A stretch of 64,000 nucleotides of DNA from the NCBI RefSeq assembly GCF_017355885.1, contig NZ_JAFEUU010000006.1, positions 124,001 through 188,000 of the forward strand, written 5' to 3'. Positions within the stretch are counted from its first letter, which is position 1, and every line of letters starts with the position of its first letter. Positions 25,792 to 40,295 of this stretch are shown here, in pieces. The DNA comes from Sabulicella rubraurantiaca. Lineage in GTDB: Bacteria; Pseudomonadota; Alphaproteobacteria; Acetobacterales; Acetobacteraceae. Under the pieces are notes generated by a model. It saw nothing but the letters and a program-made list of their open reading frames with translations. It was not told where the DNA came from and did no database searches. The position numbers were made by a program, and so were the translations under genes.

Positions 25792-26439
25792 ATGCTGCGC
25801 CTGGAGGGAGTCTGGAAAAGCTACCGCGTGCGGGGGCGCGACAAGGAGGTGCTGCGCGGGGTGGACGCGGCGGTGTGGAAGGGCGATGCCATCGGTATCC
25901 TCGGCCGCAACGGCGCAGGCAAGTCCACGCTGATGCGCCTCATCGCGGGCGTCGAGCATCCCAACGCGGGCCGCATCCAGCGGGAGATGAGTATCTCCTG
26001 GCCGCTGGGCTATGGCGGGGCGCTGCACGGCAACCTGTCCGGCGCGGACAATGTCCGCTTCGTGGCGCGCATCTACGGCCGCCCGGTGGACTGGACGCTC
26101 GGCTTCTGCGAGGAGTTCGCCGAACTCGGCGAGCACATGCGGATGCCGGTCCGCACCTACTCCTCGGGCATGCAGTCGCGCCTGGCGCTGGCGCTGTCGC
26201 TCGCGGTGGATTTCGACTGCTACCTGGTGGACGAGATGGTGGCGGCGGGCGATGCCCGCTTCGCCGGGCGCGGGCGGGAGGAGCTGATGGCCCGCCGCGG
26301 CCGCGCCGCCCTCATCCTCGTCTCCCATTCGGAGGAACTGGTGAGGAATTTCTGCACCAGCGCCGCCGTGCTCCAAGACGGGAAGCTGCACTTCCATGAA
26401 GATCTGGACCAGGCTTTCGCCGCCTATCGTGCGCTCTGA
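25792..26439 (+). CDS. kpsT: Capsule polysaccharide ABC transporter ATPase KpsT
   Basis: A 215-residue ATPase of the usual KpsT size. Walker A is GRNGAGKST (38-46), the signature is YSSGMQSRL (SSGMQ at 124-128), Walker B is YLVDE (144-148) and the H-loop is LVSHSEE. The SSGM form of the signature and the GYGGALHGNLSG segment are those of polysaccharide exporters. It energises KpsM. If kpsE starts at the ATG used here, the two reading frames overlap by 44 bp. Confidence 0.92.
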   Translation: MLRLEGVWKSYRVRGRDKEVLRGVDAAVWKGDAIGILGRNGAGKSTLMRLIAGVEHPNAGRIQREMSISWPLGYGGALHGNLSGADNVRFVARIYGRPVDWTLGFCEEFAELGEHMRMPVRTYSSGMQSRLALALSLAVDFDCYLVDEMVAAGDARFAGRGREELMARRGRAALILVSHSEELVRNFCTSAAVLQDGKLHFHEDLDQAFAAYRAL

Positions 26440-27643
26440 AGGGGTGCGCGGCGCACAGCCGCCCACGCTGCGACGCGAGGCGCCAGCGCCCTCCGCCGCG
26501 CCGCCGCTCAATATCGGCCGGCTGCTGCCGCCGCAGACGCGGCCGCGGCGCGGCATCTTCGGCCCGATCCGGCGCTTCCCCTTCACCTTCGCCGTCATCC
26601 TGCCGACGCTGCTCGCCGCGCTCTACCTCTTCGCGGTGGCGGCGCCGCAATACATCAGCGAGTCCCGCTTCACCCTGCGCGGGCAGCAGCGCAACGCCGT
26701 CTCCCTGCTCGGCGAGGCGCTGAACCAGGCCGGGTTCCGCGCCGCCTCGGAGGATGCGACGGCGCTGCGCGACTTCCTGCTGTCACACGACGCCGTGCGC
26801 CTTCTGCGCGAGAGGCTCGACCTCGTTTCCCTGTTCCGCCGCCCCGAGGCCGATCCGCTGGCGCGGCTGTGGTGGGAGGAGCCGGAGGCGGAGCGTCTGC
26901 TGTGGTATTTCCGCCGGCAGGTGAAGGCGGAGATCGACCAGAACAGCGGCGTCACCACGCTGCAGGTCCGCTCCTTCCGTCCGGCCGACAGCCTGGAGGT
27001 GTCGCGCCTCCTCCTCTCCCTCGGCGAGGATCGAGTGAACGAGATGAACCGCCGCCTGCTCGACGATTCCGTGCGCGCCGCGCGGCTCGAGCTGGAACGG
27101 GCGGAGGAGCGCGCGAAGGAGACAGGCGCCGCGCTGACCGCCTTCCGGCAGCGCGAGCAGTCGCTCGACCCCTCGCGCTCCATCGCCATCAACGTGGAGG
27201 CACTGGGGCGGCTGGAAGGCGAGGTGACGCGGCTGCGCACGGAGCTGCAGCAGGCCCAGTCCTTCGCCCGCCCCAACGCGCCGCAGATCCAGAGCCTGCG
27301 CAGCCGCATCGAGGGGGCGGAGCAGCAGCTGGCGGAGGAGCGGCGTCGCCTCGCCGCCGCCGGCACCGGCCTGACGGAGCAATTGGCCGCCTATGAGCGG
27401 CTGCGGCTGGAAGGGGAGTTCGCGGCCCGCGCCCTCGCCTCCGCCACGATGCAGCTGGAGCGCGCGATGGTGGACGCGCAGCGCCAGCAGCTTTTCCTGG
27501 TGCGGGTGGTGGAGCCGAACCTCGCGGAGCGTTCGCTCTTCCCGCGTCCCATCCTCGGCACGGTCTACGTGTTCGCGGGGCTTTCGCTGCTTTATGGTCT
27601 GGGCTGGTTGCTGGTCGCCGGCGTGAAGGAACACGCCGCGTGA
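26396..27643 (+). CDS. kpsE: Capsule export inner-membrane protein KpsE/CtrB (polysaccharide co-polymerase type)
   Basis: About 415 residues. A first transmembrane helix (FTFAVILPTLLAALYLFAVAAPQY) is followed by a large periplasmic domain with long coiled coils (RLELERAEERAKETGAALTAFRQ; LRSRIEGAEQQLAEERRRL), then a second helix (PRPILGTVYVFAGLSLLYGLGWLLVAG). ESRFTLRG and FPRPILGT are KpsE/CtrB marks. It bridges the KpsMT pump to KpsD. The start is uncertain: ATG 26396 overlaps kpsT by 44 bp, while GTG 26429 or 26444 would shorten a poorly conserved N-terminus. Confidence 0.88.
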   Translation: MKIWTRLSPPIVRSEGVRGAQPPTLRREAPAPSAAPPLNIGRLLPPQTRPRRGIFGPIRRFPFTFAVILPTLLAALYLFAVAAPQYISESRFTLRGQQRNAVSLLGEALNQAGFRAASEDATALRDFLLSHDAVRLLRERLDLVSLFRRPEADPLARLWWEEPEAERLLWYFRRQVKAEIDQNSGVTTLQVRSFRPADSLEVSRLLLSLGEDRVNEMNRRLLDDSVRAARLELERAEERAKETGAALTAFRQREQSLDPSRSIAINVEALGRLEGEVTRLRTELQQAQSFARPNAPQIQSLRSRIEGAEQQLAEERRRLAAAGTGLTEQLAAYERLRLEGEFAARALASATMQLERAMVDAQRQQLFLVRVVEPNLAERSLFPRPILGTVYVFAGLSLLYGLGWLLVAGVKEHAA

Positions 27644-27657
27644 CCCGGGGGATTCCG

Positions 27658-29400
27658 ATGAAGTATTTCGTGACGCGCGCCATGCTGGCCGCGCTGGCCG
27701 GGTTCGCGCTCGCGGGCGGGGCGGCGGCGCAGAACATGCTGCCGGTACTGACGCCGCAGCAGGCGCAGCAGCTGCAGCAATTCCAGCAGCAGCAATCGCT
27801 GATCGGCCAGCCGCCCGGCGCCCCCACCGTCGCCCGCGCCGGCCAGACGACCGAGGCCGAGGCCGGCGTCAGCGCCGCCCCGGCGCTGGGCGAGGCGCCG
27901 CGCAACACGGGCGGCCCCACCGCCGTGTTCGGCGCCGGCATCTTCACGCGCGAGGCCACGGCGGCCTCCGACGCGCCGAACCCCAACTACATCATCCAGC
28001 CCGGGGATCGCGTTTCCGTCCGCGTCTGGGGCGCGGTGGATGCGGAAGGCATCATGCCTGTGGATTCCGCGGGCAACATCTTCCTGCCCAATATCGGCCC
28101 CGTGCGCCTCGTCGGCACCCGCGCCGGCGACGTGCAGCGCGTGGTGGAGGGCGAGGTCCGCCGCATCTACACCCAGCAGGTACAGGTCTATGCCGTGCTG
28201 CTATCCACGCAGCGCATCGGCGTCTTCGTCACCGGCTTCGTCCGCACCCCCGGCCGCTTCGGTGGCTCGGCCGCGGATTCCGTCATCGACTTCCTGCAGC
28301 GAGCGGGCGGGGTGGACCCCACGCGCGGCTCCTTCCGCGACATCTCGATCATGCGCGGCGGCCGCGCCATCGCCACGGTGGACCTCTACCGCTTCCTGCT
28401 CGAGGGGCGCCTGCCGCCGGTGCGGCTGCAGGAGGGCGACACGTTGCTGGTGGGCCGCCAGCGCGCCCTGGTCGGCGCCGATGGGGCGGTGCGCAACAAC
28501 TTCCTGTTTGAGGTGCCGGGCCGCACCATGTCGGGGCGTGAGCTGGTGGACTATGCGCGTCCGCTGCCCTCCGCCACCAACGCCATCATCACCGGCAACC
28601 GCGACGGTCGCCCCTTCTCCCGCTACGCCACGCTGGCGGAGCTTTCCTCCATCCCGCTCTCCGACCAGGACGTGGTGACCTTCATCACCGACCGCCCGGC
28701 CCAGACCGTGCGGGTGATGGTGGAAGGCAGCCGCATCGGGCCCTCCGTCCTCGTGGCCGATCGCGATGTGACGCTGTGCCAGGCCCTCGACTACATCGCG
28801 GTGGATCCGGGCCTCGCCGACACCAACAGCATCTACCTGCTGCGGCCGCGTGTCGCGCAGCAGCAGCGCCGCGCGATGGAGGAGGCGATCGAGCGTCTGG
28901 AGCGCCAGCTCTTCACCGCCGTCTCCGCCACCACGGGCGTCGCCAATATCCGCTCGCAGGAGGCGAATCTCGTCGCCTCCTATCTCCAGCGCGCCCGCCG
29001 CACCCAGCCCGAGGGGCGGGTGGTCGTGTTTGACTCCAATGGCCGGTGCTCCTCAGTGCGGCTGGAGAACGAGGATGTGATCGTGATCCCCGAGCGTTCC
29101 TCCACCGTCCTCGTCTCCGGCGAGGTGACGGCGCCGCGCGCCGTGGTGTGGAACCGGGACATGAGCATCAACGATTACGTCCAGCAGGCGGGCGGCTACA
29201 CGCAGCGCGGTTCCTCGCGCAACGTGATGATCCGCCGCGCCTCGGGCGAGCTGGTGCTGGACCCGCGCGAAGGCCCGCGCCCGGGTGACGAGCTGATCGC
29301 CATGCCGCGCCTGGACCCCAAGCTGTTCCAGATCGCGACGGATTTCTCGCAGCTGATCTTCCAGGCCGCCTTCGCGGCGCGGACGGTGCAGAACTGGTGA
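27658..29400 (+). CDS. kpsD: Capsule export outer-membrane channel/periplasmic protein KpsD-like
   Basis: A 580-residue protein with signal peptide MKYFVTRAMLAALAGFALAGG then AAAQ. A Gln-rich stretch (residues about 35-50) is followed by the polysaccharide-export domain (NYIIQPGDRVSVRVWGAVDAEG, VDSAGNIFLPNIGPVRLVG) and SLBB repeats (VFVTGFVRTPGRFGG; VLVSGEVTAPRAVVWNRDMSINDYVQQAGG). ATG at 27658 with GGGGGA upstream is preferred over a GTG at 27640 that overlaps the kpsE stop. It is last in the operon and is followed by a UUCG hairpin. Confidence 0.9.
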   Translation: MKYFVTRAMLAALAGFALAGGAAAQNMLPVLTPQQAQQLQQFQQQQSLIGQPPGAPTVARAGQTTEAEAGVSAAPALGEAPRNTGGPTAVFGAGIFTREATAASDAPNPNYIIQPGDRVSVRVWGAVDAEGIMPVDSAGNIFLPNIGPVRLVGTRAGDVQRVVEGEVRRIYTQQVQVYAVLLSTQRIGVFVTGFVRTPGRFGGSAADSVIDFLQRAGGVDPTRGSFRDISIMRGGRAIATVDLYRFLLEGRLPPVRLQEGDTLLVGRQRALVGADGAVRNNFLFEVPGRTMSGRELVDYARPLPSATNAIITGNRDGRPFSRYATLAELSSIPLSDQDVVTFITDRPAQTVRVMVEGSRIGPSVLVADRDVTLCQALDYIAVDPGLADTNSIYLLRPRVAQQQRRAMEEAIERLERQLFTAVSATTGVANIRSQEANLVASYLQRARRTQPEGRVVVFDSNGRCSSVRLENEDVIVIPERSSTVLVSGEVTAPRAVVWNRDMSINDYVQQAGGYTQRGSSRNVMIRRASGELVLDPREGPRPGDELIAMPRLDPKLFQIATDFSQLIFQAAFAARTVQNW

Positions 29401-29440: not shown

Positions 29441-30772
29441 TCAGGGCTTCAGCCCCACGAGCCGCCGCGCCAGCTTGCGCGCGAAGTCGCCGCGCGGCGG
29501 ATCGAGCAGCCGCGCCAGGGCGACGCGCCCGTGCCGCACCCGGGCGCGCGGGTTCGAGAACTCGCGGAACCCGGCCTCGCCGCCGCGCCTCCCGAAGCCC
29601 GAGGCGCCGACGCCGCCAAAGGGCAGGCCTGGCATGGCCGCGTGCTCCATGGCGCGGCCCACGACCAGCGCACCGGATTTCGTGCCGGCAGCCACCGCCT
29701 CCTCCTCCGCCCGCGTCGCGCCGAACAGCGCGATGGCAAGCGGGTGCGGCCGGGCGGCGATCCAGCGCAGCGCGGCCGGAAGATCGGCGCATTCCTCCAC
29801 GGCCAGCACGGGGCCGAAGATTTCCTCCGCCGCCAGCGCACCCTGCGCAGGGGCGAGGCGCAGTGGTGTCGTTCCCTCGCCCAGCGTTTCGGTTTCGGTG
29901 CCCCCGGCGATGCGCTCCAGCCTCGCGCCCTGCGCCGGATTAATCACCGACGTTTCCGCTGCGCCGATGCCGGTGGCGCGGCAGGCAGCATGAAAATCCG
30001 CGGCCCGGTGGCCCACCAGCAGCACCGTGTCCGGAGCGATGCAGGTCTGGCCCGCATTTACCGCCTTGGCCGCCAGGATGGCCCGCGCCGCCTCGCGCAG
30101 ATCGGCCCCCGGCAGCACCAGGGACGGGCACTTTCCGCCCAGTTCCAGCGTCAGCGGCGTGAGGTTGGCCGCAGCCGCCGCCATGACGCGCCGCCCCGTC
30201 TCCGTGCCGCCGGTGAAGACCAGATGGTCCCAGGGCTGGGTCGCGAAGTCGCGCGCCACCTCCACCCCGCCCTGCACCACCAGCCCCATTCGCGGCCCCC
30301 ACGCCTCGGCCACGATCTCCCCCAGCAGCGCGGCGACGCGCGGCGTGGCTTCGGAAGGCTTGAGGCAGACGCGATTGCCGGCCGCCACGGCCTCCAGCGC
30401 CGGAACCAGGGCAAGCTGCAGCGGGTAGTTCCAAGGGGCCATCACCCCCACCACCCCCTTGGGCACGTATTCCACCCAGGCACGGGCGGGCAGGAAGGGC
30501 AGGGGGACGGAGACGCGCTGCGGCTTCGCCCAGCGACGGAGGTGCCGCGCCGCGTATCGCGCCGCCTCCGCCACCACCAGCACGTCGGCCAGCAGCGTGT
30601 CTTCCGCCGCGCGGCCGCCGAAATCCGCATCCGCCGCCGCCACCGCATCCTCCGCACGCCGCAGCACGGCGGCCCGCAGCCTCTCGAGCGCGGCGCGGCG
30701 GGCGGCAAGGTCCGGTGCGCCGTCCTCTGCCTCCGCAGCGCGCAGCGCCGCCAGCGCCACGGCGGGCGTCAC
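29441..30772 (-). CDS. Aldehyde dehydrogenase of the carotenoid operon (probable C30 carotenoid-aldehyde oxidation)
   Basis: A 443-residue NAD(P)-dependent aldehyde dehydrogenase, shorter than the 480-500 typical of the superfamily and like the coniferyl-aldehyde group. It has APWNYPLQL (N115), KPSEATP (K138), FTGGTETG, catalytic Glu E210 in LELGGKCPS and catalytic Cys C244 in NAGQTCIAPD. The GTG start overlaps the hpnE stop (GTGA). As last gene of the carotenoid operon it probably oxidises a C30 apo-carotenoid aldehyde to the acid, as aldehyde dehydrogenases do in other C30 pathways; inferred from context. Confidence 0.85.
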   Translation of the reverse strand: MTPAVALAALRAAEAEDGAPDLAARRAALERLRAAVLRRAEDAVAAADADFGGRAAEDTLLADVLVVAEAARYAARHLRRWAKPQRVSVPLPFLPARAWVEYVPKGVVGVMAPWNYPLQLALVPALEAVAAGNRVCLKPSEATPRVAALLGEIVAEAWGPRMGLVVQGGVEVARDFATQPWDHLVFTGGTETGRRVMAAAAANLTPLTLELGGKCPSLVLPGADLREAARAILAAKAVNAGQTCIAPDTVLLVGHRAADFHAACRATGIGAAETSVINPAQGARLERIAGGTETETLGEGTTPLRLAPAQGALAAEEIFGPVLAVEECADLPAALRWIAARPHPLAIALFGATRAEEEAVAAGTKSGALVVGRAMEHAAMPGLPFGGVGASGFGRRGGEAGFREFSNPRARVRHGRVALARLLDPPRGDFARKLARRLVGLKP

Positions 30773-31977
30773 CGCAGCGCCTTCGCGGCGGCGAGGCCGG
30801 ACAGCGTGGCGGATTCGATGGTCGCGGGCAGGCCGGGCCAGGTCCAATCGCCGGCCAGGACGAGGTTCGCGAGCGGGCGGCGCGGCGGCGTGGGAATCGC
30901 CCCTGGCTCGTGGCGCGGCGTGGCGCGGCGCTCCTTCACCGCCCGGCAGGGGGGTGTTTCCTCCGGCCATTCGCCGGGCAGGGCGAAGGCGGCGGCGGCC
31001 TCGCGGATCTCCGCCCAGGCACGGGGCGCGAGCGTGTCCACCTCCTCGCGCGCCTCGGCATCGCCGGCGCTGACGGTGACGGAGACGCCCTCAGGCCGCA
31101 CCAGCACCCATTGGCACAGCGCGCCCACCATGCCGATGAAGCGCACCGGGCCGGGGCCGGTGCGGGCGAAATGCAGGTTCACGATCGGGGCATGGCGCTC
31201 CGGTGCCAGGACATGGGTGAGGAGGCGCACTGCCTCCCAGGGCGGCACGGCCAGCACCACCGAATCGCCCTCCTCCAGCGCCACCGTGCCCGAATGCAGG
31301 TGCAGCGACGTGACGCGCCCGCCCGCGCGGTCCAGCTTCCGCAGCCGGTCCTCCGTCACCACCGTCCCGCCGAAGCGCCGGATCGCCGCCAGGGCCGGCT
31401 CCACGAGATCAGGCCCCAAGCCCCGCCGGGCGACGAGGAGCCGTGTGGCCCCCGGCGCGCCCAGCCGCCGCAGCACCTGTGCCAGCCGCCGCGTCCCTGC
31501 CTCGCCGACCGGGGTGTTGAGCGCCGCGACGGTCAGCGGGTCCACGAAGCCGCGCAAGAATTCCGGGTGGCGCGACATCGCCTCGGCCACGCTGCGGTCG
31601 CGCCCCGGCAGGGTCATCGCCAGGAGCGAAACCACCGCCCCGGCCGAGACTCCAGCCGGGCGCCGGTCGCGCCGCCACCAGCCGAAGGGCGACAGTGCGA
31701 CGAGGCGCCGCGACCCGTCGGCACGGTCCAGCACCGGCAGCCCGTCCGGCTCCGGCTCGATCCAGCCATCCCGCGCGCCGATCTCCTCCAGGAAGCGCAG
31801 CGCGGCGCGGTTGGCGCCGATCAGCGCATGAGTGCCGTTGTCGGTGCCGTCGGGCAGGGCGCGCGCCCGCCCGCCCGCGCCGGGCGAGCCCTCGTGCAGC
31901 GTGACCGGGCGGCCCGCCTTCAGCAGGGAATGGGCAGCGACGAGGCCGGCGACGCCGCCGCCGACGACATGGATCAT
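30769..31977 (-). CDS. hpnE: HpnE, hydroxysqualene dehydroxylase-type FAD protein
   Basis: A 402-residue FAD/NAD(P)-binding amine-oxidase-fold protein. IHVVGGGVAGLVAAHSLL and EGSPGAGGRARAL form the dinucleotide site, the segment DNGTHALIGANRAALRFLEEIGA is typical of HpnE, and the C-terminus NLVLAGDWTWPGLPATIESATLSGLAAA binds FAD. HpnE reduces hydroxysqualene to squalene. It overlaps the fused synthase gene by ATGA, so the three activities HpnC, HpnD and HpnE are encoded back to back. A desaturase-like role in the carotenoid route is also conceivable. Confidence 0.87.
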   Translation of the reverse strand: MIHVVGGGVAGLVAAHSLLKAGRPVTLHEGSPGAGGRARALPDGTDNGTHALIGANRAALRFLEEIGARDGWIEPEPDGLPVLDRADGSRRLVALSPFGWWRRDRRPAGVSAGAVVSLLAMTLPGRDRSVAEAMSRHPEFLRGFVDPLTVAALNTPVGEAGTRRLAQVLRRLGAPGATRLLVARRGLGPDLVEPALAAIRRFGGTVVTEDRLRKLDRAGGRVTSLHLHSGTVALEEGDSVVLAVPPWEAVRLLTHVLAPERHAPIVNLHFARTGPGPVRFIGMVGALCQWVLVRPEGVSVTVSAGDAEAREEVDTLAPRAWAEIREAAAAFALPGEWPEETPPCRAVKERRATPRHEPGAIPTPPRRPLANLVLAGDWTWPGLPATIESATLSGLAAAKALR

Positions 31978-33584
31978 CGCCCCGTCACCGCGAAGGCGGC
32001 CATGCGCAGCTTCTCCATGCCCGACAGACGCGCGCGCACCCGCGCCCCCGCCCAGCCACGCGCCCGCATCCGGTCGAGGAGGCGGCGATACCCCCACATC
32101 ATCACCCGTGCCGGGCGCAGCGCCGCCACGTCATGCTGTGCGAGTTCCGCCTCGGCCACGGCGAAGCCCTGCACGGCGCGTTCGGAGAGCGTCTCGCAGA
32201 TTGCGGGGAAGGCAGGGTGGGCGACGATCTCGCGCGCCGGCCCGTCCGGGATGCCAGCTGCCGCCAGCAACGTGAGCGGGATGTAGACCCGCTCCCGCAG
32301 CGCGTCCTCGTCCACGTCGCGCAGGATGTTGGTGAGCTGGAAGGTGTGGCCCAGCGCCAGCCCCCAGGCTTCCGCCTCCGGCGCGCCGAAGATGCGCACG
32401 CTCATCGCGCCCACCGAACCGGCAACGCGGCGGCAGTAGAGGTCCAGCGCCGCTTCGTCCGGCAGGCGCAGCCGGTCGGCGGCATCCGTCTCCATCCCCG
32501 CCACCATCGCCTCGCACTCGGCGCGCGGGATGCGGAAGGCGGTGCAGGCCCAGGCCAGTTCGCGCGACAGGGCGCAATCCGGCCGGTCCAGCTTCGCCCG
32601 CCACGCGAGGAGGAGGCGGCGCTTCTCCGCCTCCGGCATGGCGCCGTCGGCGATGTCGTCCACGTCGCGGCAGAAGGCATAGACGGCCCAGAGGGCGCGG
32701 CGCCGCTCGCCCTTCAGCACCGCCATGCCGCGCGCGAAGGAGGAGCCGGCGCGCCGCACCCGCGACGCGACCAGCGCGGAATCGGAGGGTGGCGGCGTCA
32801 GCAGAGCCTTCGCGAAATCGGTCTTGCCCAGCGCCACCCGCCCGGTCACCGGATCCGCCGCGCGCAGCTTCGCCAGGAGGCGCCGCGCGCAGGCCATGGT
32901 CATGGCGGATTGCCAGGCAAGGCGTCGGTTGCGGCACAGGCGGGGCAGGGCAGCGGCGCGGTCCAGCGCCGCCTCCACCCGGTCCAGCGCCGCATCCAGC
33001 ACGGCACGGCGCGGCGCAGCGTTGGCGGGGTCGAAGAAGGCATCCTCGCCACCGGCCAGGGAAAGCCAGTCCTGCGGGATATAGACGCGGCCGATCTTGG
33101 TCCGGTCCTCCGCCGCGTCCTGGATGTGGTTCAGAAGCTGCAGCGCCGTGCACAGCCCATCCGCCGCCGCCTCGCCCTCCGGCGTCGCGTCGCCATGCAG
33201 GCGCAGCAGCATCCGCCCGACCGGGTCGGCGGAGCGGGTGCAGTAATCCTCCAGCGCCGCCCAGTCCGGGTAGCGCGCCATCGTGGAATCCTGGCGGAAG
33301 GCGGAGAGCATGCGCCGCGCCTCCATCGTGCCGACCTCCAGCCGGTGCAGCGCGGCGGCCTCGGGCAGCTCCGTGGCGGGGTCGTCCAGTGCTGCCTCCA
33401 TCGCGTCCAGGCGGCGCAGCTTCTCCTCCGGAGCCAGCTCGGCGCTGTCGGCGATATCATCCGCCATGCGGACGAAGCGGTAGAAGGCCATCACCCGCCC
33501 CCGAAGCTCGGGGGCGAGGATCAGTGAGGCGGTGGGGAAGTTCTCGGTGTCGTGGGTGCGGTTGGGCGCGCCGGGGGCCTTCAT
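31974..33584 (-). CDS. hpnC-hpnD: HpnC-HpnD fusion: two-domain squalene/phytoene synthase-family protein
   Basis: One uninterrupted 536-residue frame holds two complete synthase domains. Residues 1 to about 260 are HpnC-like: Asp motifs DDIAD (42-46) and QDAAED (155-160) within LLNHIQDAAEDRTKIGRVYIP. Residues about 270-536 are HpnD-like: GSSFARGMAVL, DVDDIAD (307-313) and LRDVDED (421-427) within QLTNILRDVDEDALRERVYIP. HpnD makes presqualene diphosphate from two farnesyl diphosphates and HpnC converts it to hydroxysqualene; they are normally separate genes. The short junction is ALLTPPPSDSALVASRVRR, near base 32790. Both ends overlap neighbours by ATGA. No broken motif is seen in either half. 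Confidence 0.9.
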   Translation of the reverse strand: MKAPGAPNRTHDTENFPTASLILAPELRGRVMAFYRFVRMADDIADSAELAPEEKLRRLDAMEAALDDPATELPEAAALHRLEVGTMEARRMLSAFRQDSTMARYPDWAALEDYCTRSADPVGRMLLRLHGDATPEGEAAADGLCTALQLLNHIQDAAEDRTKIGRVYIPQDWLSLAGGEDAFFDPANAAPRRAVLDAALDRVEAALDRAAALPRLCRNRRLAWQSAMTMACARRLLAKLRAADPVTGRVALGKTDFAKALLTPPPSDSALVASRVRRAGSSFARGMAVLKGERRRALWAVYAFCRDVDDIADGAMPEAEKRRLLLAWRAKLDRPDCALSRELAWACTAFRIPRAECEAMVAGMETDAADRLRLPDEAALDLYCRRVAGSVGAMSVRIFGAPEAEAWGLALGHTFQLTNILRDVDEDALRERVYIPLTLLAAAGIPDGPAREIVAHPAFPAICETLSERAVQGFAVAEAELAQHDVAALRPARVMMWGYRRLLDRMRARGWAGARVRARLSGMEKLRMAAFAVTGR

Positions 33585-34678
33585 GCCGTCCTTGTGGCGG
33601 GATATGCGCGGCCTTTCCAGCCCGCCTTGATCCCGAGCGCCGAGCGGAAGAGCGCCGTCCACTGGATCGCCAGCGCCACCAGCACGGTCAGCGGATGCAG
33701 CGGCACGGTCCACCACGGCTCGCCGGTGCGGATCGTCACGGCGGCGCGCAGGGCGAACATCAGTAGGATGGTCAGCAGGGCCTCCGCATCCGGCAGCAGC
33801 GCCCAGGGCCAGAGATGCGCGCCGGCCAGCAGGACAGTCCAGATCGGCAGGCCGATCGGCGTCGCCATCCCCTCGCGCGCATTCTTGATGAAGCCGGCCC
33901 AAGAGGGGATGAAGCCCTCATACATGCGGCAGGTGGCGAGCGGCGCGCCGTCCAAGATCTCCGTGTCGTGGCCGCGGCTGCGGAATAGCCGGGCCAGGGC
34001 GATGCCGTCATGCAGCACCCCCTTGATCGCGCCATGCCCGCCAATCGCCGCATAGGCGCGGCGCTCCACCAGGATGAGCTGCCCGCAGGCGGCGGCGAGG
34101 CTGGGCCGGCGGCTCGTCGCCCGCCCGCCGAAGGGCAGGTAGCAGATCAGCAGGAAGTTGATGAAGGGCACGGTCAGCGCCTCGCCCAGCGAGAAGATGA
34201 GCTGCCGCGGCACGCCCGAGACCATGGCGATGCGCTTCGCCGCCGCATGGGCGGCCATGGCGCAGGCGGCATGGGGGGCGAGGCGCACATCGGCGTCAAT
34301 GAACAGCAGATGCGTGCCCTGGGCCGCCTCGGCCAGCCGGGCGCAGGCATGCACCTTGCCGGTCCATCCCGGCGGCAGGGAAGGGGCCTCGACCAGCCGC
34401 ACCCGCGCGTCGCGCGCGGCATAGCTGGACACGATGGCGGCGGTGTCGTCGGTGGAACCGTCATCCATCACCACCACCTCCACCGCGCAGCCGGTGGAGG
34501 CGAGGGCGGCATCGAGGCAGGCGCCGATATTCGCCGCCTCGTTGCGCACCGGGACGAGGATGGACACGAGCGTCCCCTCGGGCGGCGTGCCGCGCGGACG
34601 CGCCATGCGGAGCAGATTGATGGTACCGAAGACGACCGGCATCAGGGCTAAGGCGAGGGCGACGTGGGCGTATTCCAT
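33581..34678 (-). CDS. Family 2 glycosyltransferase of the carotenoid operon (CrtQ-like)
   Basis: A 365-residue membrane glycosyltransferase. An N-terminal helix (YAHVALALALMPVVFGTINLL) leads to a GT-A domain with SILVPVRNEAANIGACLDAAL, VVMDDGSTDDTAAIV, GKVHACARLAEAA, FIDADVRLAP and LHDGIALARLFRSRGHD. C-terminal hydrophobic helices anchor it. In C30 pathways an enzyme of this kind attaches a sugar to the carotenoid acid. It overlaps the fused synthase gene (ATGA) and the acyltransferase gene (TGATG). Sugar and acceptor are inferred. Confidence 0.85.
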   Translation of the reverse strand: MEYAHVALALALMPVVFGTINLLRMARPRGTPPEGTLVSILVPVRNEAANIGACLDAALASTGCAVEVVVMDDGSTDDTAAIVSSYAARDARVRLVEAPSLPPGWTGKVHACARLAEAAQGTHLLFIDADVRLAPHAACAMAAHAAAKRIAMVSGVPRQLIFSLGEALTVPFINFLLICYLPFGGRATSRRPSLAAACGQLILVERRAYAAIGGHGAIKGVLHDGIALARLFRSRGHDTEILDGAPLATCRMYEGFIPSWAGFIKNAREGMATPIGLPIWTVLLAGAHLWPWALLPDAEALLTILLMFALRAAVTIRTGEPWWTVPLHPLTVLVALAIQWTALFRSALGIKAGWKGRAYPATRTA

Positions 34679-35487
34679 CAGCTTCCCTTCGGTGCGCCGG
34701 TGTCGTGACGCGGATCGAACGCCTCGCCGCGCAGACGGGCGCGCAGGCGCTGCCACAGACCGTAGATCCCGCCCATGCCTTCCTGCGCCTCGGTCAACGC
34801 CTGGAACCGCGTAGGGTCGCGGCTGATCGAATCCTCGGCCAGCCGGTCCATCACCGCTTCCAGCGCCGCGCGCATCCGCTCGGCCCGCGCCGTGCGGTCG
34901 AGTGCCAGAAGTTCGGAGGCGGGGATGGGCGGGCCGAAACCGGCCAGCGCCTCTGCCGCGCGCTCGCCCCAGAACGGGTATTCCAGCGCCAAGGGCAGGA
35001 ACACGGCGCCGGGCGCGATCTCCGGCAAGTAGGACAGGCCGGGGGCGATGGGGACCGGGCGTTCGCGCGCGTCGCTGAAGCGGCCGGGCGCGTTCATCCA
35101 CAGCATGTGCGACGGATCGGCCAGCACGCTGCGCGCCGTGCGGAGAAAAGCGGCGGCGCCGCGCGCGCTGTTCTGCTCGATCCCGAACACGCCGATGCGC
35201 CGCATGAAGCCATAGCGCGCCAGCGCCGCCGCATCCATCGGCACGTAGCCCAGCCGCCCGGGAAACAGACGCTGCGCCAGCAGGAGAAAGGACACGCCAT
35301 CCCACCAGGAGGGGTGATTGGCGTAGATGACCAGCGGCACACCTTCCGGCGCTTCGGGCATGCCCCAGCGCGCCACGCGCAGGGCGCGCATCCGGCGCGT
35401 GAAGAAGCGCAGGAAGGCGCGGTGGAAGAAGCGGACGTAGCGTTCGTCCCGCAGGGCAACCGGATCGCCGCCCCGCTTCGCGCTCAC
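34678..35487 (-). CDS. PlsC-type acyltransferase of the carotenoid operon
   Basis: A 269-residue lysophospholipid-acyltransferase-family protein. The catalytic H-x4-D is NHPSWWD (H58, D63), and later blocks are IGVFGIEQNSARGAAAFLR and LPLALEYPFWGER. The GTG start overlaps the desaturase stop (GTGA). In staphyloxanthin synthesis a fatty acid is added to the sugar by CrtO, a different and smaller enzyme; here this PlsC-type protein could play that part. Glycerolipid acylation is the alternative. Confidence 0.83.
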   Translation of the reverse strand: MSAKRGGDPVALRDERYVRFFHRAFLRFFTRRMRALRVARWGMPEAPEGVPLVIYANHPSWWDGVSFLLLAQRLFPGRLGYVPMDAAALARYGFMRRIGVFGIEQNSARGAAAFLRTARSVLADPSHMLWMNAPGRFSDARERPVPIAPGLSYLPEIAPGAVFLPLALEYPFWGERAAEALAGFGPPIPASELLALDRTARAERMRAALEAVMDRLAEDSISRDPTRFQALTEAQEGMGGIYGLWQRLRARLRGEAFDPRHDTGAPKGS

Positions 35488-37067
35488 CCCGCCAGCTCCG
35501 CCTCGCGCCGCCCGGCATCGCGCGCCTCCTCGCTCATGCCCCGCCCGCCGAGATCGGTGTCGAGGCTGTCGGCAGCGATCCAGCCGGACATCATCACCAT
35601 GGGCATGCCGGGACCCGGATGCGCCGCCCCGCCCGCGAGGTAGAGCCCCTTCACCTGCTTCGAGCGATTGCCCGGCTTGAAGGCGCCGAGGAAGGAGCCG
35701 TGGCTCGCCAGCCCATAGATCGCCCCGTTCAGCACGCGGTAGCGCTCGTGGATGTCCACCGGCGTCAGGCGCCGCTCCACCACGATCCGATCCTCGATGT
35801 CGCCGAGGCCGGCGGTGCGCTTCAGCTTGTCCAGGATGACCTGCCGGTAGCCGGGGAAGATCTTGTCCCAGTCATGATGCGGCCGCAGATGGGGCGTGTG
35901 CACCAGCACGTAGAGCGCCTCACCGCCCGGTGGCGCCGTCTCCGGCTCGGTCACGGCGGTGGCGGCGAGGTAGGCGGTCGGGTCCGGCGCCGGCTCGCCC
36001 TTCTTGTAGATGCTGTCGAACTCCTCCTCCGCGTCGCGGGAGAAGACGAAGCAGTGATGCGCCAGGTGCTCGTAGCGGCGGTTCAGCCCGAGATACAGCA
36101 CGACGCCGGAGCAGGCGGGCTCGAATCCCTTTTTGCCATAGGCCTCGCCCGCCGCGCCGCCGACGAGTTCCGTGTAGGTGCGGATCGCGTCCATGTTGGA
36201 GATCACGGCGTCGCAGGCGATGCGCTCGCCCGAGGCGGTGTGGACCGCGACAGCCTTGCCGTTCTCGACCTCGATGCGCGTGGCGTCGGTGGAGGGGCGG
36301 AGATCGGCGCCGAGTTCCCCAGCCAGCTTCGCCAGACCCTCGGCCACGGCGCGCGTGCCGCCGACCGGGTACCACACGCCCTCGCTCGCCTGCATGTCGC
36401 CGATGGAGGCGAGGACGGCGGGGGCGAGATAGGGGTTGGAGCCGACATACTGGCAGAAATGGTCGAGCATCTGCGCCAGGCGCTCATCCGGCACGTGGCC
36501 GCGGATGACCCGCGCCACGGTCTGCCCCATGCGCAGCGCCAGCACGTCCTTCAGCGTGTCGGCGCGCATGTTGGCGCGCATGTTCAGCGTGTCGCCGATG
36601 CCCTCGACCGACTTCCAGAAGAAGAACTTCTCCGACACGCCATGCAGGTGGCGGGAGATGCGCTGGAACTTCCGGTAGCCATCGCCCGCGCCGCTGCCGG
36701 GGGCGAAGCGGTCCATCTCGGCCGCCATCGCCTCCACGTTCTCGCGCAGATCGATCCAGGTGCCGTCGTCGAAGAAGCAGCGCCATTGCGGGTCGAGGCG
36801 GATCAGCGGCAATTCCCGCGCCTGGTCGCGCCCCGCCTCGGCATAGATGCGGCGCAGGACGCGCGGCACGGTGAGGATGGTCGGCCCCATGTCGAAGCGG
36901 AACGACCCCGAGCCATCCGGCGCGTCGAGGGAAAGCTGCGCCGCCTTGCCGCCCAGCCATGGATTCTTGTCCAGCAGCGTGACGCGATGGCCGCGCGCGG
37001 CGGCGGTGCAGGCTGCGGCGAGTCCGCCAAGGCCGGCGCCGATCACGACGACGTGGGAAGTGGTCAT
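35484..37067 (-). CDS. Carotenoid desaturase/oxygenase-type flavoprotein (CrtI/CrtN family)
   Basis: A 527-residue FAD protein: VVVIGAGLGGLAAACTAAARGHRVTLLDKNPWLGGKA at the N-terminus, FRFDMGPTILTVPRVLRRIYAEAG, FCQYVGSNPYLAPAVLASIGDMQASEGVWYPVGGTRAV, and C-terminal GLYLAGGAAHPGPGMPMVMMSGWIAAD, all phytoene desaturase-family marks. It is either the dehydrosqualene desaturase or the terminal methyl oxygenase of the C30 route; motifs alone do not decide. It ends in a GTGA overlap with the acyltransferase gene. Confidence 0.87.
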   Translation of the reverse strand: MTTSHVVVIGAGLGGLAAACTAAARGHRVTLLDKNPWLGGKAAQLSLDAPDGSGSFRFDMGPTILTVPRVLRRIYAEAGRDQARELPLIRLDPQWRCFFDDGTWIDLRENVEAMAAEMDRFAPGSGAGDGYRKFQRISRHLHGVSEKFFFWKSVEGIGDTLNMRANMRADTLKDVLALRMGQTVARVIRGHVPDERLAQMLDHFCQYVGSNPYLAPAVLASIGDMQASEGVWYPVGGTRAVAEGLAKLAGELGADLRPSTDATRIEVENGKAVAVHTASGERIACDAVISNMDAIRTYTELVGGAAGEAYGKKGFEPACSGVVLYLGLNRRYEHLAHHCFVFSRDAEEEFDSIYKKGEPAPDPTAYLAATAVTEPETAPPGGEALYVLVHTPHLRPHHDWDKIFPGYRQVILDKLKRTAGLGDIEDRIVVERRLTPVDIHERYRVLNGAIYGLASHGSFLGAFKPGNRSKQVKGLYLAGGAAHPGPGMPMVMMSGWIAADSLDTDLGGRGMSEEARDAGRREAELAG

Positions 37068-37077
37068 GCGGTGGTCC

Positions 37078-38637
37078 TCACTGCGCGGCGAGCGACGGCT
37101 CGGCCGTGACGGGAATTTGCAGATCCTGCTGCACGAGCTTCGCGGTGATGCGCGCGCCCTCGTAGATCACCGGCAGGCCGGAGCCCGGATGCGTCCCCCC
37201 GCCGACGAGGTAGAGGCGCTCCGTGTCGTTGAACCGGTTGCGCGGGCGGAAGGACAGCATCTGCAGCAGGTCGTGCGACAGGTTGAAGGTGGCGCCGTAG
37301 CCCACCGCGTAGTCGTCGCGCCAGGCCTGCGGCGTCACCATGCGCTCGTGCCGGATGCGGCTTTCGATGTCGTGCAGCCCCAGCGCCTTCAGCCGGTCCA
37401 GCGCCGCCTGCCGGAAGCACGGCGCCTCGCTTTCCCAGTCGAGGCCGGAGCGCAGATTGGGCACGGGCACCAGCACGTAGAGGGAGGAATGCCCCGGCGG
37501 CGCCATGGAGGCATCGGTGGCGACGGGGTTCTGCACATAGGTCGAGGGCTCGTCCGGCAGCACGCCGGCCTCGATCTGCGCGATGTTGCGCTGGTATTCG
37601 CGGCTGAGCAGGATCGTGTGGTGCGCAAGCTCCGGAAAGCGCCCCTCCACGCCCAGGTAGAGCATGAAGGTGGAGCAGGAATAGCGCGCGCGCTCGATCT
37701 TGCGGTCGTTCCAGTCGCGCCGCAGCGCATCGGGAATCAGGCGCGGCACGGCATGGGCGAAGTCGGCATTCAGCACCACCGCGTCGCCCTCGACATGGCG
37801 CCCCGCCGCCTCAACCCCCGTGGCGCAACGCCCGCTGAAGGACACGCGATCCACTGGCGAGTTCAGCCGGATCTCCACGCCGAGGCGCTCCGCCACGCGG
37901 GCCATCGCCTCGCTCACCGCACCGCAGCCGCCGCGCGGGTGGAACACGCCGAACTCGTATTCCAGGAAGCTCAGGATGGTGAACATGGAGGGGCAGCGGA
38001 AGGGCGACATGCCCAGGTATTTCGTCTGGAAGGAGAAGGCGAGGCGGATGCGCGGGTCGCGGAAGTAGCGGCGCAAATCGCCATCCACCATCTTGTGCGG
38101 ACGCAGGTGACGCAGGGAGCGCAGCATGTCCGCCCCCATCATCGCCCGCGCCGCCAGGAAGGGACGCTCCAGCGCCGGGCGGAAGGCGGCCAGCTTCTCG
38201 CGGTTGTCGCGCATGAAGCGCCGCACCCCGGCCGCATCGCCCGGCGAGATGGCGCGGATCGCCGCCTCCATCCGGTCCATGTCGGGCGTCGCATCCAGCA
38301 CCGCGTTGCCGCCATCCCCCTCGAAGACGAGGCGGTATTGCGGGTCGAGGCGGATCATTTCTACCTCCTCCTCCAGATCGGCGCCGCAGGAGGTGAAAAT
38401 TTCCTGGAGAATGCGCGGATAGAGGAAGAAGGTCGGCCCCAGATCGAAGCGGTAGCCGCCGGGCGCCTCCAAGGTGCGGGTGCGGCCGCCGACGACGGCG
38501 TCCTTCTCCAGCACGGTGACGCGCGCCCCGCCGGCGGCCAGCTGCATGGCCGCGGCCAAGCCACCCGGCCCCGCTCCGACCACGACGACATGAGGTCGCT
38601 GCCGTCGCAGCGCGGGGGCGGGAAGGGGTGCGTTCAT
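37078..38637 (-). CDS. Carotenoid desaturase/oxygenase-type flavoprotein, second copy (CrtN/CrtP family)
   Basis: A 519-residue FAD protein, first gene of the carotenoid operon. VVVVGAGPGGLAAAMQLAAGGARVTVLEKDAVVGGRTRTL, RFDLGPTFFLYPRILQEIF, LAFSFQTKYLGMSPFRCPSMFTIL and FGVFHPRGGCGAVSEAMA, then LYLVGGGTHPGSGLPVIYEGARI. The SFQTKYLGMSPF block is CrtN-like. Two such genes in one operon fit a desaturase plus an oxygenase that makes the 4,4'-diapo-aldehyde. ATG at 38637; a candidate promoter lies just upstream. Confidence 0.87.
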   Translation of the reverse strand: MNAPLPAPALRRQRPHVVVVGAGPGGLAAAMQLAAGGARVTVLEKDAVVGGRTRTLEAPGGYRFDLGPTFFLYPRILQEIFTSCGADLEEEVEMIRLDPQYRLVFEGDGGNAVLDATPDMDRMEAAIRAISPGDAAGVRRFMRDNREKLAAFRPALERPFLAARAMMGADMLRSLRHLRPHKMVDGDLRRYFRDPRIRLAFSFQTKYLGMSPFRCPSMFTILSFLEYEFGVFHPRGGCGAVSEAMARVAERLGVEIRLNSPVDRVSFSGRCATGVEAAGRHVEGDAVVLNADFAHAVPRLIPDALRRDWNDRKIERARYSCSTFMLYLGVEGRFPELAHHTILLSREYQRNIAQIEAGVLPDEPSTYVQNPVATDASMAPPGHSSLYVLVPVPNLRSGLDWESEAPCFRQAALDRLKALGLHDIESRIRHERMVTPQAWRDDYAVGYGATFNLSHDLLQMLSFRPRNRFNDTERLYLVGGGTHPGSGLPVIYEGARITAKLVQQDLQIPVTAEPSLAAQ

Positions 38638-38664
38638 GCCTGTGCTTGCGGTCGTGGTCCCTGG

Positions 38665-38714: not shown

Positions 38715-40295
38715 TCACCCGAGCAGCGCCAGCACCGCCTCGGGCGAAGCCGCCTCCTCGCACCGCGCCAGCGCCCGGGGCAGGAGCCGCGCCATGGCGA
38801 AATCCGCGAGCGGCGCGTAGCGCCCATCCAGCGCCGCCGCGCGGGCGAGCCGCGCCGAGCCCAGCACCCATCCCGCCGCCTCCAGATAGGCGGCGGCGGA
38901 GGCGGAAGCCTCCTCCAGCGAGGCCGTGCAGAGCCGGCTCGTCGCCCGCTCCAGCTCCCCGGCGGCGGGGACGAGGCGCGCATCTGCCTCCCGCGCCTCC
39001 GCGATCAGCTCGCGCATCCCCGCCCCCTGGTCGCGCCCCAGCTTCCGGGTGACGAGGTCGAGGGCCTGGATGCCGTTGGTGCCCTCGTAGATCGGGGCGA
39101 TGCGGCTGTCGCGCAGCACCTGCGCCGCCCCCGTCTCCTCGATGAAGCCCATGCCGCCATGCACCTGCACGCCCAGGCTCGCCGCCTCGACGCCGCGATC
39201 GGTGCACCAAGCCTTCACGATGGGTGTCAGCAGGGCAAGGCGCGCTTCGTCGCCCCGGTCGGCGCAGACCGCCGCCTCCAGCGCCAGGAAGCGGCCCATC
39301 AGCGTGGTGGCGCGCATCTCAGCCAGCATCCGCGCCACGTCGGGATGCCGCGCGATGGGCCGCCCGCCCTGCTCGCGCCCCGCCGCGTAGGCTTCCGCCA
39401 GTTCCAGCGCCCGCGCCCCGGCCGCCACGCCCTCGATCCCCACCTGGAGCCGGGCGTTGTTCATCATGGCGAACATGGCGGGGAGGCCGCGATGCGGTTC
39501 CCCGATCATCTCCGCCACCGCGCCCTCGAAATACATGGTGCAGGTGGGCGAGGCGTGGATGCCCAGCTTGTGCTCGATGCCGCCGCATCGCACCGGGTTG
39601 CGCGATCCGTCGGGCAGGAATTTCGGACAGGCGAAGAGCGAGATGCCGCGCGATCCCGGCGGCGCATCCGGCAGCCGCGCCAGCACGAGGTGGAGCGTGT
39701 TTTCCGCGAGGTCGTTCTCGCCATAGGTGATGAAGATCTTCTGGCCGTGCAGGGCGAAGCGCCCATCGCCGAGCGGCTCCGCCCGCGTGCGGATGGCGCC
39801 GAGGTCGGAGCCCGCCTGCGGCTCCGTCAGGTTCATCGTGCCATTCCAGGCGCCGCTGACGAGCGGCGGCAGGAGGCGCGCCGCCTGCTCCTCCGTCCCG
39901 AAGCGCTCCAGGCACTCCACCGCGCCCGCCGTCAGTGTCGGGCAGAGCGAGAAGGCCATGTCCGCGGTCGCCAGCAATTCCTTCAGCGCGGCCCAGAGGG
40001 CGAAGGGCAGGTCCTGCCCGCCATGCGCCGCCCCGGCGCAGAGCGACTGCCAACCCCCCTCGCGCCACGCCGCGTAGGCTTCGCGATAGGCGGGCGGGCA
40101 TTGCACCGCCCCGTCGCGGAACACCGCGCCCTGCCGGTCCGCCTCCATGCGGTGTGGTGCCACCACCTCGCGGCAGAAGCGCGCGATCTCCTCCACTAGC
40201 GCCGACACCTCCTCCGGCGCCAGCTCGCCCGGCATGGGGCAGAGGCGCGTGAGGGCGAAGGCGATATCCTCCGTCTGGGTCGTGTGTCTGCTCAT
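38715..40295 (-). CDS. Acyl-CoA dehydrogenase family protein
   Basis: A 526-residue flavoprotein of the long acyl-CoA dehydrogenase type. It has GTMNLTEPQAGSDLGAIRTRA (FAD and substrate loop), GQKIFITYGENDL, HKLGIHASPTCTMYFEG, QVHGGMGFIEETGAAQVLRDSRI and the IYEGTNGIQALDL region with the catalytic Glu. A C-terminal extra helical domain follows. It is somewhat shorter than the roughly 590 residues common in this subgroup. Start overlaps the stop of the sarcosine-oxidase-like gene by ATGA, so the two are coupled. Substrate unknown. Confidence 0.9.
   Translation of the reverse strand: MSRHTTQTEDIAFALTRLCPMPGELAPEEVSALVEEIARFCREVVAPHRMEADRQGAVFRDGAVQCPPAYREAYAAWREGGWQSLCAGAAHGGQDLPFALWAALKELLATADMAFSLCPTLTAGAVECLERFGTEEQAARLLPPLVSGAWNGTMNLTEPQAGSDLGAIRTRAEPLGDGRFALHGQKIFITYGENDLAENTLHLVLARLPDAPPGSRGISLFACPKFLPDGSRNPVRCGGIEHKLGIHASPTCTMYFEGAVAEMIGEPHRGLPAMFAMMNNARLQVGIEGVAAGARALELAEAYAAGREQGGRPIARHPDVARMLAEMRATTLMGRFLALEAAVCADRGDEARLALLTPIVKAWCTDRGVEAASLGVQVHGGMGFIEETGAAQVLRDSRIAPIYEGTNGIQALDLVTRKLGRDQGAGMRELIAEAREADARLVPAAGELERATSRLCTASLEEASASAAAYLEAAGWVLGSARLARAAALDGRYAPLADFAMARLLPRALARCEEAASPEAVLALLG

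Follow-up and report, generated by a model that had tools for sequence, protein, structure and literature searches.

A fused hpnC-hpnD gene in a predicted C30 carotenoid operon of Sabulicella rubraurantiaca and its probable role in hopanoid supply

A stretch of 64,000 nucleotides from Sabulicella rubraurantiaca (contig NZ_JAFEUU010000006.1, positions 124,001 to 188,000; hereafter the window) encodes a 536-residue protein in which HpnC and HpnD are joined in a single chain. The best joint explanation of our results, to which we give a probability of roughly 85%, is that this protein is a bifunctional HpnC-HpnD enzyme that is shared between two pathways, feeding the synthesis of a C30 carotenoid and most likely also squalene-hopene cyclase (Shc). 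From the fused frame, its conserved motifs, the surrounding operon, the distribution of the fusion, and the failure to find another copy, we infer the enzyme reactions, the pigment made, and a supply common to both pathways. In the proposed pathway, the HpnD half would condense two molecules of farnesyl diphosphate (FPP) to presqualene diphosphate, the HpnC half would turn this intermediate into hydroxysqualene, and the product of the overlapping hpnE gene would reduce hydroxysqualene to squalene. CrtI-like enzymes, an aldehyde dehydrogenase, a glycosyltransferase, and an acyltransferase-like protein would then convert squalene to a glycosylated, acylated C30 carotenoid acid, and the squalene made by way of the fusion would also feed Shc, which is encoded in a cluster without hpnC, hpnD, and hpnE. 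An earlier note on this DNA had proposed that FPP is taken to squalene by two proteins, HpnCD and the hpnE product, and this is still the best reading of the sequence. The protein is a natural single-chain candidate for the conversion of FPP to hydroxysqualene that could help to show whether presqualene diphosphate is handed over between the two sites and could serve as a compact module in squalene production.

The fused gene and its two domains

The gene, its domains, and its motifs are listed below in window coordinates.

31974..33584, minus strand: fused hpnC-hpnD gene, 536 amino acids, coordinates including the stop; an ATG-to-stop frame without internal stop or frameshift
32799..33557, minus strand: HpnC domain, residues 10-262 (TIGR03464 match)
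33447..33461, minus strand: Asp-rich motif 1 of the HpnC half, DDIAD (DDxxD), residues 42-46; D42, D43, and D46 invariant in 39 proteins
33105..33131, minus strand: Asp-rich motif 2 of the HpnC half, NxxxDxxxD, residues 152-160; N152, D156, and D160 invariant in 39 proteins
32760..32798, minus strand: junction, residues 263-275, the 13 residues separating the HpnC and HpnD model matches
31995..32759, minus strand: HpnD domain, residues 276-530 (TIGR03465 match)
32646..32660, minus strand: Asp-rich motif 1 of the HpnD half, DDIAD (DDxxD), residues 309-313; D309, D310, and D313 invariant in 39 proteins
32304..32330, minus strand: Asp-rich motif 2 of the HpnD half, NxxxDxxxD, residues 419-427; N419, D423, and D427 invariant in 39 proteins

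A profile search returned two separate Pfam SQS_PSY matches within the protein, and the invariance of the motif positions was read from an alignment of 39 fused proteins of the Roseomonas group. The mean identity to the window protein was 0.49 in the junction versus 0.69 and 0.73 in the domains, and the ratio of nonsynonymous to synonymous differences (pN/pS) was 0.14-0.36 for each domain and about 0.5 for the junction in the two sequence pairs compared. The length of the junction is conserved: measured between fixed points, it comes to 33 residues for 36 of the 39 aligned proteins. The HpnC-HpnD fusion is thus confirmed as genuine in this genome. The continuous 536-codon frame with two SQS_PSY domains, the order HpnC then HpnD, and the two intact Asp-rich motifs in each half were all described correctly in the earlier note, which gave no strand (it is minus); its placement of the junction near base 32790 agrees with the interval of about 13 residues, 32760-32798, between the model matches.

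An AlphaFold2 model built from the 39-row alignment was almost all helical, with a mean predicted local distance difference test score of 92.6 and a predicted template modelling score of 0.90, the latter suggesting a settled packing of the domains. Its best PDB matches were the CrtM-like synthases 8isa and 2zco and the Alicyclobacillus HpnC 4hd1, each alignment being about one domain long. By sequence, the solved structure nearest to the HpnC domain is the HpnC structure 4hd1.

The fusion as the apparent source of squalene

The S. rubraurantiaca genome (99% complete) yielded three SQS_PSY matches, namely the two halves of the fusion and one 289-residue protein on contig C24. The latter was considered as a separate HpnD or CrtB and rejected, as it scored 55 bits to HpnD and matched no other family at E ≤ 0.001; we take it to resemble the NDUFAF6-like group. 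The fusion appears to be both the sole HpnC and the sole HpnD of this genome. An Shc scoring over its cut-off is encoded on the same contig as the fusion, about 46 kb away, in an hpnA-hpnB-shc cluster that contains no hpnC, hpnD, or hpnE.

Squalene supply was then surveyed in 80 of the 88 genomes of the family Acetobacteraceae that carry the fusion, the distant genome G001 being left aside. The fused HpnC halves scored 150-236 bits to the HpnC model, and no separate gene in the 80 genomes scored above 156 bits to it. A separate HpnD over the cut-off was present in four genomes (G162, G205, G330, and G202), with the other listed separate matches at 199 bits or less. The second SQS_PSY copy of genome G365 was nearest to the CrtB model NF045921 (398 bits, cut-off 500), and the copies of other genomes were judged by score alone. 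Shc over the cut-off was found in 58 of the 80 genomes, including the four with a separate HpnD, and by these score measures 54 of the 80 possess Shc and neither a separate HpnC nor a separate HpnD.

Twenty Shc neighborhoods were read, to roughly 5-6 kb on each side and less at contig ends. No hpnC, hpnD, or hpnE was present near shc in 16 of them, which were chosen across genera and include that of S. rubraurantiaca. The remaining four, picked for a match beside shc, have kept hpnD and hpnE and lack hpnC; these are the hopanoid clusters of G205, G162, G330, and G202 (L194-L197), which comprise hpnA, hpnB, hpnD, hpnE, shc, hpnG, and hpnH, and in these genomes the fused protein is the only HpnC found. 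Because Shc is present while no separate HpnC, and in most genomes no separate HpnD, was found, and the hopanoid clusters read lack either hpnC or all of hpnC, hpnD, and hpnE, the fusion in the carotenoid operon probably supplies hopanoids too. Such a shared supply argues, in turn, that the fusion makes hydroxysqualene, since these hopanoid genes would otherwise be idle. From the present-day states we infer a stepwise replacement, in which the hpnC of the hopanoid cluster was lost first and hpnD and hpnE followed. Hopanoid clusters without hpnC, or without all three genes, in genomes with the fusion suggest that an enzyme of one pathway took over the supply of another, and such genomes, although likely to make hopanoids, would escape surveys that seek hpnCDE beside shc. 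The reading leads to a testable prediction, namely that pigment and hopanoids depend on one gene for their supply.

A further-reaching explanation treats the fusion as a two-site squalene hub, in which direct transfer of presqualene diphosphate between the packed domains would be an advantage that accounts for the repeated independent fusions and which, in the Roseomonas/Roseococcus group, would have displaced the hopanoid hpnCDE genes stepwise, hpnC first. In the four genomes in which a separate HpnD but no separate HpnC was found, the product of that HpnD, if the enzyme is active, must reach the HpnC domain of the fusion in trans, and covalent channelling is therefore not obviously required. 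We regard the hub as a tentative and rather doubtful extension of the bifunctional, shared enzyme; if it were true, hopanoid membranes would depend on a carotenoid gene.

The operon around the fusion

The genes adjoining the fusion in the window are as follows.

29441..30772, minus strand: aldehyde dehydrogenase (PF00171), from its place in the operon a candidate oxidizer of a C30 aldehyde; GTGA overlap with hpnE
30769..31977, minus strand: hpnE, hydroxysqualene dehydroxylase (TIGR03467, 239 bits, under the cut-off of 283.05)
33581..34678, minus strand: family-2 glycosyltransferase (PF00535), putative CrtQ-like role; ATGA overlap with hpnCD
34678..35487, minus strand: acyltransferase-like protein, putative CrtO-like role; weak PF01553 match of 18.6 bits (cut-off 23)
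35484..37067, minus strand: CrtI-family desaturase/oxidase b (TIGR02734, 397 bits, over the cut-off)
37078..38640, minus strand: CrtI-family desaturase/oxidase a (TIGR02734, 526 bits, over the cut-off); start codon chosen by inspection
38715..40295, minus strand: acyl-CoA dehydrogenase-like gene upstream of the operon (PF00441/PF02770/PF02771)

The start of hpnE overlaps the hpnCD stop codon in an ATGA at 31977-31974, bearing out the earlier claim that an overlapping hpnE comes next after the fusion, and it is the single HpnE match at E ≤ 1e-10 in the whole genome. The acyltransferase-like gene overlaps its neighbors on both sides, and its product matches a Microvirga gene at the equivalent place that is annotated as a member of the lysophospholipid acyltransferase family. 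On the basis of its content, we assign the overlapping operon as a predicted squalene-route C30 carotenoid cluster: it brings together squalene genes with CrtN/CrtP-type, glycosyltransferase, and acyltransferase genes, where CrtN and CrtP are not distinguished and the acyltransferase match lies under the Pfam cut-off. Operon content was counted in the 59 of 80 named loci in which the frame was flanked by more than 5 kb upstream and 1.5 kb downstream. The hpnE gene stood beside the fusion in all 59; hpnE, the glycosyltransferase, the acyltransferase, and both CrtI genes were present in 57, and the aldehyde dehydrogenase as well in 52.

An acyl-CoA dehydrogenase-like homologue also lies upstream of the carotenoid operon in many related loci. 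On the other side, at 26396-29400 of the window on the plus strand, a polysaccharide export pair (one BexC/CtrB/KpsE-like protein, under the cut-off, and one Poly_export/SLBB protein) is convergent with the carotenoid operon.

Family assignment and alternative functions

Scored alone, the HpnC half gave 231.6 bits to TIGR03464 (cut-off 250.45) and 107.9 bits to the HpnD model, and the HpnD half gave 242.2 bits to TIGR03465 (cut-off 278.6), 93.9 bits to the HpnC model, and 94.9 bits to the nearest CrtB model. The whole fused chain scored 314.2 bits to the HpnC model and 337.5 bits to the HpnD model, over both NCBIfam cut-offs, because each model's score sums both domains. Full NCBIfam membership read from these whole-chain scores was rejected, as the halves scored singly fall below the cut-offs. 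As a yardstick, the separate HpnC and HpnD of Roseomonas marmotae scored 275 and 318 bits, respectively, both over the cut-off. The HpnC half combines HpnC as its best family with intact Asp-rich motifs, and the HpnD half does so for HpnD. By these scores and motifs the fused halves are classed as divergent members of the HpnC and HpnD families, and gene context therefore matters for naming them.

Several results weigh against a bifunctional enzyme shared by carotenoid and hopanoid synthesis. Both halves and HpnE lie below curated cut-offs, so that their names rest on the best-family margin, the surrounding genes, and genome logic. The HpnC half of G344, G393, and G152 matches its model only partly, at ∼150 bits, no better than CrtB-like genes. 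Shc was not found in 22 of the 80 surveyed genomes, in which the squalene-supply argument is inapplicable and the fusion would serve carotenoids only, and no crt genes lie beside the fusion in five named loci (L064, L076, L096, L098, and L104). The literature searched yielded no biochemistry on a fused HpnCD.

The CrtM-type structures among the best PDB matches of the model, together with the failure of both halves to reach the HpnC and HpnD cut-offs, could instead indicate a CrtM-like synthase that makes dehydrosqualene directly for the pigment, with the second domain as a helper and squalene not a product. We consider this unlikely, since the margin in favor of each half's own Hpn family exceeds 100 bits, hpnE accompanies the fusion in every one of the 59 loci with enough flank, and Shc is kept in 58 of the 80 genomes with the fusion, 54 of them, by the score measures used, without a separate HpnC or HpnD. 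It is just as improbable, in our judgment, that only one half is active and the other is now structural or regulatory. Other fused enzymes provide precedent for such a change of role, neither half passes its cut-off alone, and the HpnC half is partial in the three genomes named above; however, all 39 aligned proteins keep the Asp and Asn residues of the motifs in each half, purifying selection on the two halves is similar in the two pairs compared, and 76 of the 80 genomes have no other candidate over the HpnD cut-off or above 156 bits to HpnC.

Distribution of the fusion

Of 397 Acetobacteraceae genomes searched with the protein, at least 89 carry the fusion as a stop-free frame that runs through both domains; this lower bound covers matches listed down to an E value of about 5e-54 and includes S. 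rubraurantiaca itself and the distant G001. Because the same fusion spans so many genomes of the family, it is not an assembly error. Four further genomes (G305, G115, G120, and G308) show it in part only; the coordinates place the start of the G120 match, and of one of the pieces in G305, at contig base 1. Within the genus, 18 of 21 genomes carry both domains in one frame, the remaining three being 57-84% complete. Both domains were in one frame in all 80 named loci retrieved, from Roseococcus, Rubritepida, Rhodovarius, Belnapia, Siccirubricoccus, Roseicella, Paracraurococcus, Neoroseomonas, Falsiroseomonas, and others. In a sample of the class, at least 14 of 385 genomes, belonging to six other families, had both domains in one frame, and in a fifteenth (G596) the frame is cut by the contig end. 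Among the matches listed for a sample of the phylum (398 genomes) there was no further stop-free frame of full span, and G970 and G777 have a stop between the two domains. The fusion is usual in one branch of the Acetobacteraceae and scattered elsewhere.

Sequencing error or stop read-through as the origin of the long frame is refuted by these relatives: a single base could join the genes where separate hpnC and hpnD share a frame with one stop between them, as in 7 of 37 neighboring pairs (several of the seven were chosen for that look, so this is not a rate), but the same open frame recurs in scores of separately assembled genomes and the junction length is conserved. The earlier note was right that a genuine HpnC-HpnD fusion with an overlapping hpnE is present, and the open frame shared by relatives rules out a sequencing error or frameshift. 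The rarity that it implied does not hold, since such a fusion was described in 2017 and is usual in one branch of the family; to a large extent the fusion is already common and described.

Relation to known systems

According to the available text of PMC5462960 (2017), most genomes of subdivision-2 Acidobacteria have hpnC joined to hpnD, and Actinobacteria (Actinopolyspora/Blastococcus) and Rhodospirillum centenum likewise possess a fused hpnCD. This kind of fusion is therefore known, and ours is not a first. Those fusions resemble that of the window in that a single gene, roughly twice the usual length, encodes HpnC followed by HpnD. They are treated among hopanoid genes in the portion of that paper available, which does not name the present family, whereas the window's fusion lies in a C30 carotenoid operon and, unlike them as described there, appears to have displaced hopanoid copies. 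The literature searched, which did not extend to one central squalene-route paper, held no report of the fusion from this family, of its carotenoid-operon setting, or of the replacement of hopanoid hpnCDE. What seems to be new is the fusion as the apparent only enzyme of its type in the cell, probably serving both pigment and hopanoids.

Separate genes provide the closest comparisons. A Roseomonas marmotae plasmid carries overlapping genes for the HpnC, HpnD, and HpnE activities, arranged as in the window, but there hpnC and hpnD are separate and shc follows, the cluster being hpnA, a glycosyltransferase gene, hpnC, hpnD, hpnE, and shc. The HpnCDE-squalene route to C30 carotenoids has been demonstrated genetically in Methylobacterium extorquens, as reported in the accessible part of PMC10448405; strain AM1 resembles the window in using HpnCDE with CrtN/CrtP-type, glycosyltransferase, and acyltransferase steps, and differs in having hpnC and hpnD as two genes that cluster with the gene for hopene cyclase, with the tailoring genes elsewhere. 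The squalene route to C30 carotenoids has likewise been demonstrated genetically in Azospirillum brasilense (PMC13274349, in its available portion). An Azospirillum fusion was considered, given one tblastn stretch over both domains and a published hpnCDE deletion, and was dropped because, in the record of A. brasilense Sp7 (L142), a stop codon separates the two genes.

The search returned no report on a Roseomonas C30 carotenoid or a Roseococcus diapocarotene; C30 dioate pigments were reportedly described in Roseococcus in older work.

Number of origins

Trees were built for the HpnC domain (86 rows) and the HpnD domain (85 rows) from hand-picked sequences that included 28 of the 110 fused loci (L004-L113). 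Before the clade tests and state counts, two long-branch rows (L123 and L173) were removed from both trees and a third (L124) from the HpnD tree only; the f33 and f133 rows are also long-branched and their placement is unsure. The fusions of the Roseomonas group, Microvirga, and family f15 grouped together (33 rows) with support of 81 in the HpnC tree, after long branches were dropped, and 99 in the HpnD tree. Those of f51 (beside unfused Azospirillum), f122, f124, and G001 (placed with unfused relatives from the family to which it belongs) stood apart. A single clade of all fused rows was rejected by the approximately unbiased (AU) test, with p values of 1.7e-81 (45 rows) and 1.5e-14 (44 rows), and at least 8 and 7 changes between the fused and unfused states were needed in the HpnC and HpnD trees, respectively. 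On these trees a single origin is rejected for the fusions sampled here, and one event probably underlies the fusion shared by the Roseomonas/Roseococcus group, the plasmid of Microvirga, and one more family. Some of the state changes could be fissions rather than fusions. Fusion is mechanically easy, as illustrated by the seven pairs noted above, in which only one in-frame stop separates the genes.

In family f33 (L168-L170), two-domain SQS_PSY fusions with an HpnE-like gene after them have diverged strongly, on branches of about 2-2.7 changes per column, and could represent another enzyme. A Microvirga carotenoid operon with fused hpnCD (L143, 2676-12898), from a different order of Alphaproteobacteria, resides on a 0.98-Mb plasmid, that of Microvirga ossetica (NZ_CP016619), whose record names the fusion only as a "squalene/phytoene synthase family protein". 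The fused gene there is 52% identical to that of the window and the order (CrtI, CrtI, acyltransferase, glycosyltransferase, hpnCD, hpnE) is the same, with an aldehyde dehydrogenase gene nearby on the other strand, but the operon has a methyltransferase gene and ispH, in which it differs from that of the window. Horizontal transfer is a possible source of this plasmid operon.

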